NCBI RefSeq assembly: GCF_009932335.1
Contig: NZ_BLJF01000001.1
Location: 3,410,001-3,474,000, forward strand
Source of the DNA: Pseudomonas asiatica
GTDB taxonomy: Bacteria > Pseudomonadota > Gammaproteobacteria > Pseudomonadales > Pseudomonadaceae
DNA: 64,000 nt
Direction: 5' to 3'
Shown: in pieces, positions 38,488 through 42,470 of the stretch
Layout of the letters: each line of letters begins with the position of its first letter
Position numbering within the stretch: the first letter of the stretch is position 1
Program-made: the position numbers and the translations under genes
The notes under the pieces: generated by a model
Databases searched by the model: none
Seen by the model: only the letters and a program-made list of their open reading frames with translations
Told to the model about the DNA's origin: nothing

Positions 38488-38634
38488 GTATTTGCCGGTA
38501 GCGATTTTTCCCCGGCACTACCTTCAGCAGACTTGGCCGAAATGTCCCTGCCCGCCGGCAAGACCACACCTGGAAGGCGCGCGGCGGCACAGGTTCGAAC
38601 AAACAGAACAATCGACCGACTGATGAGGCCCACC

Positions 38635-39585
38635 GTGGACAAGATCCTCCACCAACCACTGGGCGGCAACGAAATGCCGCGTTTCGGCGGCATCGCCACC
38701 ATGCTCCGTCTCCCCCACCTGCAAAGTGCCCAAGGCCTGGACGCCGCCTTCATCGGCGTGCCACTGGACATCGGTACTTCGCTGCGCTCCGGCACCCGTT
38801 TCGGCCCGCGTCAGATCCGCGCCGAATCGGTGATGATCCGCCCGTACAACATGGCCACGGGAGCTGCACCGTTCGACTCGCTCTCGGTGGCCGACATCGG
38901 TGACGTGGCGATCAACACCTTCAACCTGCTGGACGCCGTGCGCATCATCGAAGAAGCGTATGACGAGATCCTCGAGCACAACATCATCCCGCTGACCCTG
39001 GGTGGCGACCACACCATCACCCTGCCGATCCTGCGCGCGCTGCACAAGAAGCACGGCAAGATCGGCCTGGTGCACATCGATGCCCACGCCGACGTCAACG
39101 ACCACATGTTCGGCGAGAAGATTGCCCACGGCACCACCTTCCGCCGTGCCGTGGAAGAAGGCCTGCTCGATTGCGAGCGCGTGGTGCAGATCGGCCTGCG
39201 CGCCCAGGGCTACACCGCCGATGACTTCAACTGGAGCCGCCGCCAGGGCTTCCGTGTAGTCCAGGCCGAAGAGTGCTGGCACAAGTCGCTGGAACCGCTG
39301 ATGGCCGAAGTGCGCGAAAAGGTCGGCGGTGGCCCGGTGTACCTGTCGTTCGACATCGATGGCATCGACCCGGCCTGGGCTCCCGGCACCGGTACCCCGG
39401 AAATCGGCGGCTTGACCACCATCCAGGCGATGGAGATCATTCGCGGCTGCCACGGCCTGGACCTGATCGGCTGTGACCTCGTCGAAGTCTCCCCGCCTTA
39501 CGACACCACCGGCAACACCTCGCTGCTCGGTGCCAACCTGCTGTTCGAGATGCTCTGCGTGCTACCGGGCGTAGTGCGTCGTTAA
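38635..39585 (+). CDS. gbuA: Guanidinobutyrase (agmatinase-family ureohydrolase)
   Basis: A 316-residue Mn-dependent ureohydrolase. Motifs: GGDHTITLP, VHIDAHADVND and SFDIDGIDPAWAPGTGTPE. These supply the two histidines and four aspartates that bind two Mn ions. The sequence from DKILHQPLGGNEMPRFGGIA onward is very close to P. aeruginosa GbuA, which hydrolyses 4-guanidinobutyrate to GABA and urea. GTG 38635 with GAGG upstream is preferred; ATG 38623 is an alternative. The neighbours, a LysR gene and a symporter, fit the gbu cluster. Agmatinase activity cannot be excluded from sequence alone. Confidence 0.9.
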   Translation: MDKILHQPLGGNEMPRFGGIATMLRLPHLQSAQGLDAAFIGVPLDIGTSLRSGTRFGPRQIRAESVMIRPYNMATGAAPFDSLSVADIGDVAINTFNLLDAVRIIEEAYDEILEHNIIPLTLGGDHTITLPILRALHKKHGKIGLVHIDAHADVNDHMFGEKIAHGTTFRRAVEEGLLDCERVVQIGLRAQGYTADDFNWSRRQGFRVVQAEECWHKSLEPLMAEVREKVGGGPVYLSFDIDGIDPAWAPGTGTPEIGGLTTIQAMEIIRGCHGLDLIGCDLVEVSPPYDTTGNTSLLGANLLFEMLCVLPGVVRR

Positions 39586-39718
39586 TACCGCTATACCCCG
39601 GCAGGAGCCATGAGGGAGGGCCACAGAGGCCCGCCAACAACACGACAAGACCGCCGGGCGCCGTGAACCCGCCCGCGTGGTCGATCTCGCCATAATAAAG
39701 ATAATCGGGAGACCCCCA

Positions 39719-41098
39719 ATGGCCTTGGACATCATTGTTGTAATGATCTATACCGCCGGCATGCTCGGGCTTGGCTGGTACGGCATGCGGCGCGCGAAAA
39801 CCCATGAGGACTACCTGGTGGCCGGGCGCAACCTCGGCCCGGTCCTGTACATGGGCACCATGGCCACCACCGTACTCGGTGGCGCTTCCACCGTCGGCAC
39901 CGTACGCCTGGGCTACGTCCACGGCATCTCCGGCTTCTGGCTGTGCGCAGCCCTGGGCCTGGGCATCATCGCCCTCAACCTGTTGCTGGCCAAACCCTTG
40001 CTGCGCCTGCGCATCTTCACCGTGACCCAGGTGCTGGAACAGCGCTACAACCCGGCCGCACGCCAGGCCAGCGCCGTGATCATGCTGGCCTACGCACTGA
40101 TGATCGGCGTTACCTCGACCCTGGCCATGGCCACCGTATTGCAGGTGCTGCTCGACCTGCCGTTCTGGGCCTCGCTGCTGCTGGGCGGTGGTGTGGTGGT
40201 GCTGTACTCGACCATTGGCGGCATGTGGTCGCTGACGCTGACCGACATCGTCCAGTTCGTGATCAAGACCGTCGGCCTGATGTTCATCCTGCTGCCTGTG
40301 TGCCTGTACAAGGCCGGTGGCTGGGACACCCTGGTGGCCAAGCTGCCGGCGGCCAGCTTCCAGCTGACCACCATTGGCTGGGACACCATCATCACCTACT
40401 TCCTGATCTACTTCTTCGGCATCCTCATCGGCCAGGACATCTGGCAGCGGGTGTTCACTGCCCGTGACGAGAAGGTCTGCCAGCGTGCCGGCACCACCGC
40501 CGGTGTGTACTGCATACTGTACGGCCTGGCCTGCGCCGCGATCGGCATGGCTGCGCATGTGCTGATGCCCGACCTGGCCAACCCGAACAATGCCTTTGCC
40601 GAGATGATCAAGACCACGCTGCCCGATGGCATCCGTGGCCTGCTGATGGCAGCGGCGCTAGCCGCCATGATGTCCACCGCCAGCGCCGGCCTGCTGGCTG
40701 CGTCCACCACCCTGACCGAAGACCTGCTGCCCAAACTGCGTGGCGGCAAGGCGTCGAGCCTGGGCGTCAGCCGCCTGTTCACCCTGCTCACCGGCCTGGT
40801 GGTGCTGGGCATTGCCCTGGTGGTGAACGATGTGATCAACGCCCTGACCCTGGCCTACAACCTGCTGGTCGGCGGTATGCTGATCCCGCTGATCGGGGCG
40901 ATTTTCTGGAAGCGCGCTACCACCGCCGGGGCTATCGCCAGCATGTCGCTGGGCTTTGCCACCGCGCTGCTGTTCATGTTCAAGGATGGGCTGGAGGCCA
41001 ATACGCCGATCTACTACAGCCTGGCGGTTGGTCTGGTGAGCTTTGTGGTGGTCAGCCTGATATCGCGTAAATCGGTGGCGGCGGTTAAGCTGGCCTGA
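39719..41098 (+). CDS. Sodium:solute symporter (SSS family)
   Basis: A 459-residue SSS-family transporter with about 13 helices. N-terminal LGWYGMRRAKTHEDYLVAGRNLG and the family stretch VLYSTIGGMWSLTLTDIVQF are present. It follows gbuA by 133 bp on the same strand and matches the place of PA1418 beside gbuA. Uptake of 4-guanidinobutyrate or a related compound is likely. ATG 39719 follows GGGAGACCCCCA. Confidence 0.88.
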   Translation: MALDIIVVMIYTAGMLGLGWYGMRRAKTHEDYLVAGRNLGPVLYMGTMATTVLGGASTVGTVRLGYVHGISGFWLCAALGLGIIALNLLLAKPLLRLRIFTVTQVLEQRYNPAARQASAVIMLAYALMIGVTSTLAMATVLQVLLDLPFWASLLLGGGVVVLYSTIGGMWSLTLTDIVQFVIKTVGLMFILLPVCLYKAGGWDTLVAKLPAASFQLTTIGWDTIITYFLIYFFGILIGQDIWQRVFTARDEKVCQRAGTTAGVYCILYGLACAAIGMAAHVLMPDLANPNNAFAEMIKTTLPDGIRGLLMAAALAAMMSTASAGLLAASTTLTEDLLPKLRGGKASSLGVSRLFTLLTGLVVLGIALVVNDVINALTLAYNLLVGGMLIPLIGAIFWKRATTAGAIASMSLGFATALLFMFKDGLEANTPIYYSLAVGLVSFVVVSLISRKSVAAVKLA

Positions 41099-41110
41099 TA
41101 GGTCCCGGCT

Positions 41111-41224
41111 GCCTTTACTGGCCCTTTCGCGGGTAAACCCGCTCCTACAGGAATATCACAGGCCTCGAGTGCTGTGGGGTACCTGTGGGAGCGGGCAAGC
41201 CGGCGAAGAGGCCGGTACAGGCAA
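41111..41224. repeat. REP pair (GCGGGTAAACCCGC / GCCGGCGAAGAGGCC type)
   Basis: Inverted arms TGGCCCTTTCGCGGGTAAAC and GAAGAGGCCGGTACAGGC have a mismatched centre. The pair lies between the convergent symporter gene and the 42-aa gene. Confidence 0.85.
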
Positions 41225-41242
41225 CACACAACTGGCAGACAC

Positions 41243-41284
41243 TAAAAGGCCACTGCACCCACCCAGGTGCAGCGGCCTTTGTCT
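41243..41284 (-). terminator. Intrinsic terminator of the 42-aa gene
   Basis: On the minus strand the hairpin AAAGGCC-GCTGCACC/GGTGCAG-TGGCC is followed by TTTTAG. It lies directly after the 42-aa stop. The complement strand also has a T-run, so it may serve the symporter transcript too. Confidence 0.88.
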
Positions 41285-41287
41285 GTA

Positions 41288-41416
41288 TCAGCGACGACGC
41301 GGTTGGCGTTTGCGCTGCTCTTCATCAGTCGGGATCGGCACCGGCTGCAAGGGTGGTGGAATCAGCCCCAAGGCGACAGCCAGGTCATGGAGCCAGTTGG
41401 ACAGTGGTTTATTCAT
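41288..41416 (-). CDS. Small protein, 42 aa, PA1414-like (SicX locus homologue)
   Basis: The ATG at 41416 follows the strong site AAGGGGG, and the frame runs 42 codons to TGA at 41290-41288. The product starts MNKPLSNWLHDLAVALGLIP, contains PPLQPVPIPTDEEQ and ends in a basic RKRQPRRR. As I recall, this matches the PA1414 protein family of Pseudomonas. In P. aeruginosa the PA1414 transcript is Anr-dependent and gives rise to the small RNA SicX, which acts on anaerobic ubiquinone genes. Here a perfect Anr/FNR box lies upstream at 41531-41544 and an intrinsic terminator follows, so the whole locus is preserved. The proximity to gbuA fits PA1414-PA1421 synteny. Whether the peptide, the RNA or both are functional is open. 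Confidence 0.8.
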   Translation of the reverse strand: MNKPLSNWLHDLAVALGLIPPPLQPVPIPTDEEQRKRQPRRR

Positions 41417-41505
41417 AATGCCCCCTTGACGGGTCAGCCTCACGGCAATTCAATCCTGCGATGTTTCATACAGATCATAGCCCTATGTCCTGTATTACGC
41501 ATGCC
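41417..41505 (-). ncRNA. Leader / possible SicX-like sRNA region
   Basis: The segment between the probable start site (about 41496-41505, estimated from the Anr box) and the 42-aa ATG is about 85 nt. In P. aeruginosa the sRNA SicX derives from the corresponding transcript. I cannot define its ends or confirm conserved RNA structure. Confidence 0.35.
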
Positions 41506-41530
41506 TCTAAAGCTACAGATACGGGCCATT

Positions 41531-41544
41531 TTGATACGGATCAA
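41531..41544 (-). promoter_or_regulatory. Perfect Anr/FNR box
   Basis: TTGATACGGATCAA is an exact TTGAT-N4-ATCAA match. It lies about 115-128 bp upstream of the 42-aa start, overlapping the 3' end of the neighbouring lysR gene. A possible -10 (TTTAGA on the minus strand, 41511-41506) would put the start site about 38 bp from the box centre, close to the class II distance of 41.5. Confidence 0.8.
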
Positions 41545-42434
41545 GCCGTAACGGCGCATTCCGACGACTGGTTAATCGTTTCGCTTTGTTGCAGGTCGAT
41601 CCAGGCCTGCAAATTTGCCCCGCGCATGCCCTGGCGCCACATCAACCAAGTGACCGCCTGATCGAACGGTGCCTGCAGCTGGTGCACCCGCACCCGGTCG
41701 CGCCCGGGCAGGCTGTCGAGCATCGACCTGGCCATCATCGCCACACCCGCGCCAGCGATCACGCAGGCCAGCATACTCTGGTACGACTCGATCTCCATCA
41801 CCCTGCCCATGGGCGTATGGGCATGGGCATACCAGGCCTCCAGGCGCATACGGTACGAGCAGCCCTGGCGGAAGGTGAACACCGCCTTGCCGGCCACATC
41901 CTTGGCAGTGTGTACCGCAGGGTGCTCGGGGCTGGTGATCAGCACCAACTGCTCATCGCAAAGCGGCACGCCATCCAGCCCGGCCAGGCTCGGTGGCCCG
42001 TCCACCAGGGCCGCGTCCAAGGTGTGGTTGAGCAGGCCTTCCAGCAACTCGCCACTGGGCGCCGCACGCACCTGCAAGTTAACCGCCGGGTAGGCCTGGT
42101 GATAACGCGCCAGCAACCCCGGCAAATGGGTCGCCGCCGTGCTGTACATGGTCCCCAGCACGAAGTCCCCGGCCGGTTGGCCGCCCCGCACGGCGGCCAG
42201 CGCCTCGTCGCGCAAGGCTGACATGCGGTTGGCGTAATCCAGCAGCACCTTGCCCGCGGGCGACAGCTGCAGGCGCTGGCGCTCGCGCAGGAACAGCTCG
42301 ACACCCAGTTGCTCTTCAAGCTGGCGCAAGCGCGTCGACAGGTTCGACGGCACCCGATGCAGGCGCTCTGCGGCGCGGGTGACCGAACCTTCCTCGGCCA
42401 CGGCCTGGAAGATACGCAGTTGGCTGAATTCCAC
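41541..42434 (-). CDS. LysR-family regulator
   Basis: A 297-residue LTTR. HTH: LRIFQAVAEEGSVTRAAERLHRVP and NLSTRLRQLEEQLGVELF. The start is GTG at 42434 with GGAGA upstream; TTG 42446 is an alternative. It is divergent from an MFS transporter with an LTTR-like box between them, so regulation of that exporter is likely. Its last bases overlap the Anr box of the next locus. Confidence 0.87.
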   Translation of the reverse strand: MEFSQLRIFQAVAEEGSVTRAAERLHRVPSNLSTRLRQLEEQLGVELFLRERQRLQLSPAGKVLLDYANRMSALRDEALAAVRGGQPAGDFVLGTMYSTAATHLPGLLARYHQAYPAVNLQVRAAPSGELLEGLLNHTLDAALVDGPPSLAGLDGVPLCDEQLVLITSPEHPAVHTAKDVAGKAVFTFRQGCSYRMRLEAWYAHAHTPMGRVMEIESYQSMLACVIAGAGVAMMARSMLDSLPGRDRVRVHQLQAPFDQAVTWLMWRQGMRGANLQAWIDLQQSETINQSSECAVTA

Positions 42435-42470
42435 GGTATTCTCCAAAACAGAACAACTTGATCATCATTA

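Follow-up and report, generated by a model that had tools for sequence, protein, structure and literature searches.

A PA1414-family small-protein gene behind a putative class I Anr promoter at the gbu locus of Pseudomonas asiatica

Does the locus next to the gbu genes in the Pseudomonas putida group specify a counterpart of the small RNA SicX, a small protein, or another product? In P. aeruginosa, SicX is located at the homologous place, between an Anr box and the PA1414 ORF, and has been described in passages of the published account as the most highly expressed gene of that species in human chronic infection (PMC10247376); in another paper, sicX is located downstream of PA1413, a LysR gene (PMC10926688). 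A sequence-only reading of the DNA analyzed here, a stretch of 64,000 nucleotides from Pseudomonas asiatica (contig NZ_BLJF01000001.1, positions 3,410,001 to 3,474,000; hereafter the window), had proposed a locus resembling PA1414/SicX. This resemblance held for the protein family and for synteny, as judged by profile and tblastn searches, and failed for the SicX RNA, as judged by covariance search. We consider it probable that an Anr-activated class I promoter drives an mRNA for a 42-aa protein of the PA1414 family and that this protein is the selected product. The following features are relevant:

38533..39585, plus strand: agmatinase-family protein in the gbuA position (PF00491; 88% identity to the P. 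aeruginosa-type counterpart)
39677..41098, plus strand: sodium:solute symporter, convergent neighbor (PF00474)
41245..41280, minus strand: terminator-like hairpin, 16 pairs, ending in UUUU (-29.9 kcal/mol, z -6.65)
41288..41416, minus strand: small ORF, 42 aa, PA1414 family (NF041729; median dN/dS 0.06)
41417..41467, minus strand: 5' leader as predicted, about 51 nt long and conserved among putida-group loci (alignment A5; no SicX match)
41421..41427, minus strand: Shine-Dalgarno sequence AAGGGGG, read from the sequence and part of a possible weak CCC/GGG hairpin
41474..41479, minus strand: TATGAT, predicted -10 hexamer in class I geometry (51 nt past the box), with the start predicted near 41467
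41531..41544, minus strand: Anr/FNR box TTGATCCGTATCAA, exact match, with its center at -70.5 from the predicted transcription start
41541..42446, minus strand: upstream LysR-type regulator, PtrR-like (NF047711, 458 bits vs. a cut-off of 400)

With regard to the small gene, an ATG at 41416, located 114 nt past the end of the box and preceded by AAGGGGG at 41427-41421, opens a reading frame of 42 codons with its stop codon at 41290-41288, in agreement with the strong ribosome binding site, the codon number and the distance of about 115 bp that had been read from the sequence. The peptide matches the NCBIfam model NF041729 (PA1414_fam) at positions 1-43 of 43 with 76.4 bits (E 9e-22, cut-off 28) and, judged by this match, the window ORF represents the small-protein gene PA1414 as it exists in the P. 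putida group. The idea that gene finders miss such a gene was mistaken, as close relatives are annotated at NCBI as 'PA1414 family protein'. A local copy of Pfam-A returned nothing for the window peptide or two relatives, though precomputed Pfam tables list PF28105 for the family. Of 398 sampled Pseudomonadaceae genomes, 299 have a PA1414-family protein, with a score over the cut-off in 295. One genome (G400) bears two copies of the locus near both ends of contig C1, separated by about 15 kb should this contig be circular; the two differ in their match scores, and in one of them (L192) the ORF pattern found no ORF. In another genome (G135, locus L127), placed in the genus of P. aeruginosa, the PA1414 peptide and the leader are putida-like.

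Residues M1, L12, V14, L16, G17, L18, Q24, P25 and P27 are invariant in 29 aligned family members. Among 70 putida-group loci, 52 contain an ORF of exactly 42 aa (50 distinct), and for these the median dN/dS is 0.06 relative to the window ORF and 0.08 in pairwise comparison (1206 of 1225 pairs), with 14, 9 and 37 of 42 columns variable at codon positions 1, 2 and 3, respectively. The low dN/dS values and the concentration of variation at the third codon position argue for a protein under purifying selection. An AlphaFold2 model features a helix at residues 3-15 and a short helix at 31-36 and inspires little confidence overall (mean pLDDT 73.6, pTM 0.36). A search of PubMed Central, confined to papers under open licenses and hence not proof of absence, found no literature on the small PA1414 protein; PA1414 is not named in the main text of the paper on the core Anr regulon (PMC6588701), and a term search of a paper on stutzeri small proteins (PMC10433244) was without match. 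Behind the ORF, the hairpin at 41280-41245, whose stability was reached by none of 200 shuffles, bears out the strong terminator described previously, with the qualification that its U run is only UUUU, that three of its U are paired in the computed fold and that a consensus terminator scan did not list it.

The small ORF occupies the syntenic place of the PA1414 family, next to a LysR-type gene and the gbu locus. As had been recognized from the sequence, it is a homolog of PA1414 close to gbuA and is convergent with the gbuA-linked symporter (39677..41098, plus strand). Identities to a P. aeruginosa-type region (L233) amount to 81% for GbuR, 88% for GbuA, 75% for the symporter and 70% for the LysR-type protein (tblastn), while the MCP beside GbuR is not matched there (37% over a part). 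The P. aeruginosa-type gene order (GbuR, GbuA, symporter, further ORFs, PA1414, LysR) is kept in the window, but without ORFs between the symporter and PA1414. Transporter-like ORFs beyond the LysR gene look alike in both regions, by appearance rather than by alignment. In 80 named loci (at most 10 kb), the symporter was found as a neighbor in 57, a PtrR-like LysR protein in 38, GbuA in 33 and GbuR in 14, counts that are limited by flank length and by the 1e-30 threshold. Similar protein length, the order of neighboring genes and an upstream Anr box are all shared with the PA1414 family (NF041729, PF28105).

The perfect Anr/FNR site noted earlier was recovered as TTGATCCGTATCAA at 41544-41531 on the minus strand, the sole exact TTGATN4ATCAA within the window in a pattern search. 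Across the 5.97-Mb genome this pattern occurs at 17 sites, as compared with about 0.7 expected from the base composition of the window and none for a reversed control pattern, so that exact occurrences of the box are a strong signal here. Among the FNR-type proteins of the genome, one exceeds the Fnr cut-off, two others match strongly, at 222 and 197 bits, and a fourth matches weakly, at 44 bits. A similar complement, of three FNR proteins, has been described for P. putida (PMC4505428). The small gene combines an exact box upstream with an Anr-type protein in the same genome, the combination taken here to indicate the Anr regulon, and its control by Anr would be expected.

At least nine of ten positions of TTGATN4RTCAR are matched in 60 of 68 distinct putida-group leaders (the other eight lack a box at this level), in six of ten resinovorans/otitidis leaders, in three of 63 fluorescens/syringae leaders and in none of eight stutzeri leaders; these group labels were assigned in this analysis from record titles and similarity. 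The 68 leaders derive from the 70 putida-group loci, L192 having been dropped as the ORF pattern found none. Among leaders from the genus of P. aeruginosa that contain SicX, all 24 reach the same level within a 170-nt search span and 23 within a 160-nt span, which cut off one box; mononucleotide shuffles reach it in 0.5-1.6% of cases. Conservation of the box in the putida group is partly pre-selected, because all of these loci except L127 were collected by DNA similarity to a box-containing segment, and four matches that started downstream of the box (L182, L185, L186, L188) still had it. Fluorescens-type leaders such as L019, L025 and L028 are devoid of a good Anr box and contain two copies of CATTGCG upstream of a conserved CTATTAT; the CATTGCG pair is possibly the site of another regulator.

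The position of the box relative to the putative -10 hexamer differs between the groups. In the 60 box-bearing putida-group leaders, TANNNT follows the box after 51 nt in 47, after 50 nt in eight and after 52 nt in one, while in four (L196-L199) it is found at 41 nt, about one helical turn closer; none has it at the class II spot of 20-24 nt. All 24 leaders of the SicX-containing genus have TANNNT 22-23 nt past the box, and all ten of the resinovorans/otitidis group have it at 21-22 nt, lower-scoring boxes of that group included. These counts score hexamers by presence; counting only the best-scoring hexamer gave 13 of 24 for class II, as a frame-shifted GATAGT outscored TAGTCT. In 23 of the 24 SicX-containing leaders TANNNT occurs also at 74 nt, inside the SicX stem, where a second start may lie. 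From the predicted starts, the box would be centered near -41.5 in the SicX-containing genus (class II) and at about -70.5 or -60.5 in the putida group (class I). At class I FNR-type promoters the activator is located at about -61.5 or -71.5, similar to the box center at -70.5 relative to the predicted start in the window and at -60.5 in four relatives. A class II promoter for the window was rejected, as there is no -10-like hexamer at class II spacing. A consensus sigma-70 scan reported no promoter at the locus, which speaks against our main reading. Compared with the P. aeruginosa-type PA1414 locus, the window locus accordingly appears to have class I rather than class II box geometry and a short leader without SicX.

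All 25 sampled genomes of the P. aeruginosa genus encode a PA1414-family protein, and all of these but G135, 24 in number (loci L002-L008 except L005, L015, L017, L018 and L112-L126), have a leader with a near-invariant block including GCGGAGAGTGGGACGCCG and a GC-rich hairpin. We equated published SicX with this SicX-type leader by geometry, not by sequence comparison. RNAalifold predicts two stem-loops for these leaders; of 24 pairs, five have changed on both sides, and the second hairpin accounts for four of these five. A covariance model, R1, built from 18 of the 24 leaders (the near-identical L007, L008, L114, L116, L117 and L119 were left out), matches 24 of 396 Pseudomonadaceae genomes, all from this one genus and most of them by construction, in a search with stricter filters and ten candidates scored per genome. 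In the window R1 had no match at E up to 10, and its best unfiltered score near the locus was 1.8 bits; a search of the entire P. asiatica genome with the stricter filters and ten scored candidates was likewise without match, and Rfam returned nothing for 41000-41700 at E up to 1. Neither the two predicted stem-loops nor the invariant GCGGAGAGTGGGACGCCG of the SicX-type element were found at the window locus. At E up to 5, no putida, fluorescens or stutzeri locus among 55 sources scored. Weak matches were obtained in the leaders of eight of ten resinovorans/otitidis loci (16.6-23.2 bits, E 0.05-0.98), and these may represent a diverged form of SicX; however, 17.8 bits were also obtained for a true SicX locus (L049) read on its opposite strand, so that a GC hairpin alone reaches part of this range. 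SicX has been reported to be without homolog in other species on the basis of blastn with more than 90% identity and coverage, according to the relevant passage of PMC10247376. Given the R1 matches across 24 genomes, the reported absence of homologs in other Pseudomonas looks like a threshold effect.

The known target operon of SicX is ubiUVT. UbiU and UbiV were recognized as two adjacent U32 matches and thus named by adjacency rather than by comparison with known sequences; on this basis, the adjacent pair is present in 19 of the 24 genomes with a SicX-type leader and was not found in the P. asiatica genome, which has two non-adjacent PF01136 matches and no match for narG. Five genomes (G008, G158, G100, G145 and G076) have kept the SicX block and are missing the adjacent UbiU/UbiV pair, G008 also being without narG. 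SicX may therefore have other targets in these organisms, or the pair may have been lost recently.

The published PA1414 gene of P. aeruginosa measures 234 bp and contains a Rho-independent terminator; its transcripts are confined to the region of the annotated start at the 5' end (PMC10247376). In a P. aeruginosa-type genome (G126), the small ORF comprises 44 aa and is 98% identical to 'PA1414 family protein [Pseudomonas aeruginosa]'; extended upstream to an in-frame GTG at -99, it measures exactly 234 bp. An extension of this length (from -99 or -102) exists in four of 24 loci of the genus (L120, L003, L017 and L113), and the 77-aa translation differs by one residue from P. aeruginosa record P0042, the initiator aside. 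Based on this exact length and near-identity, the start annotated for the 234-bp PA1414 most likely falls within the SicX region and precedes the conserved ORF of 43-44 aa, and the family-wide ORF most likely begins about 99 nt downstream of the annotated start, after the GC-rich hairpin, where it would correspond to the last 43-44 codons of the 234-bp gene. The published start-codon mutation would then presumably miss the 44-aa ORF, and the frame-shift may do so too.

An sRNA homologous to SicX that is released from the leader and acts on anaerobic ubiquinone synthesis would fit the shared protein family, the shared synteny and the Anr box. We nevertheless regard it as highly improbable, because R1 in the above searches is confined to one genus and matches neither window nor genome, the class II hexamer is missing in each of the 60 box-bearing putida-group leaders and the genome is without an adjacent UbiU/UbiV pair; in addition, the predicted leader is too short for an sRNA of roughly 90 nt, so that the SicX-like sRNA earlier supposed at this position is unsupported. 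A different, putida-specific regulatory RNA in the leader or in a hairpin at the -10 region, with the ORF incidental or in a second role, has other evidence to draw on. Conservation past the -10 exceeds the needs of an ordinary leader, which counts against our main reading: 20 of the 57 positions between hexamer and ATG are invariant over 42 leaders, as are 28 over the whole 102-nt stretch, in an alignment (A5) of 42 of 61 distinct stretches that leaves out the most divergent putida-group loci L194-L202. An imperfect inverted repeat surrounds the predicted -10 (41501-41457, minus strand; ATACAG at 41495-41490 and CTGTAT at 41473-41468, with outer arms TGCG at 41501-41498 and CGCA at 41460-41457). 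With three further helices, 91.6% of cells are paired as compared to 32-45% in slid controls, although the structure was partly derived from the window's own fold, a bias in its favor. Changes on both sides occur in seven cells (shuffled mean 1.4), a count that none of 500 shuffles attains; by pairs, however, they affect three, which 52 of 500 shuffles attain. Most changes are transitions, A to G or C to U, which leave a wobble pair in place automatically, and those on both sides are found in few rows, several of them near relatives. Furthermore, the window leader folds no better than its shuffles (z -0.24), the 5' arm of the hairpin would be untranscribed if TATGAT is the -10, and the ORF is plainly under selection at the protein level. 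Such an RNA is therefore unlikely in our view, and the inverted repeat may be an operator, an RNA hairpin or nothing of the kind.

The gene could also be read only from the promoter of the upstream LysR gene, with the box being incidental or acting on LysR. That ORF is co-directional and ends 124 nt upstream, a consensus scan detected no terminator in between (the same scan also missed the hairpin behind the small ORF) and the box is mostly missing from fluorescens/syringae loci. The box shares nucleotides with the stop codon of the LysR-type ORF (41541-42446, minus strand), which also constrains part of the left half-site, a further point against our main reading. The right half-site, on the other hand, is outside the LysR coding sequence and yet conserved, and the spacing between box and hexamer falls into two narrow classes, which makes transcription exclusively from the LysR promoter quite unlikely.

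In the reading preferred here, an Anr-activated class I promoter in front of the small-protein gene, a fall in oxygen would cause Anr, or either of two additional proteins of the FNR type, to bind the box centered at -70.5 and to activate, from this class I position, a sigma-70 promoter with TATGAT as its -10 element. The resulting mRNA would extend from about 41467 to about 41245 and, behind a leader of 51 nt, encode the 42-aa protein. The latter would consist of an N-terminal helix, a proline-rich linker with the invariant LGL and a QPxP core, and an arginine-rich tail. Most likely its function is accessory or regulatory: under oxygen limitation, the N-terminal helix would attach this small protein to a membrane or to a partner complex, the partner being a guess.

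For the family as a whole we tentatively propose, as a possibility that falls somewhat short of an even chance, that the product of the 'SicX locus' that has been conserved widely is a small protein under the control of Anr, overlooked in the published account, which considers only the sRNA, because the annotated start of PA1414 lies inside the sRNA. SicX itself would be an RNA derived from the 5' leader, bound up with a class II promoter and limited to the P. aeruginosa lineage and perhaps, in diverged form, the resinovorans group; a class I promoter and a highly conserved leader of its own would characterize the P. putida group. Although SicX was reported to be restricted to P. aeruginosa, a SicX-type leader is common to 24 sampled species of one genus, and it was not found in other genera in which the PA1414-family protein is still conserved. 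The locus offers a clean case of a box that keeps its gene and changes its geometry, from class II with an sRNA leader to class I without one or the reverse. Its small protein is under selection and may have been left intact by the published mutations, and the most useful outcome is the separation of protein and RNA at the PA1414 locus.
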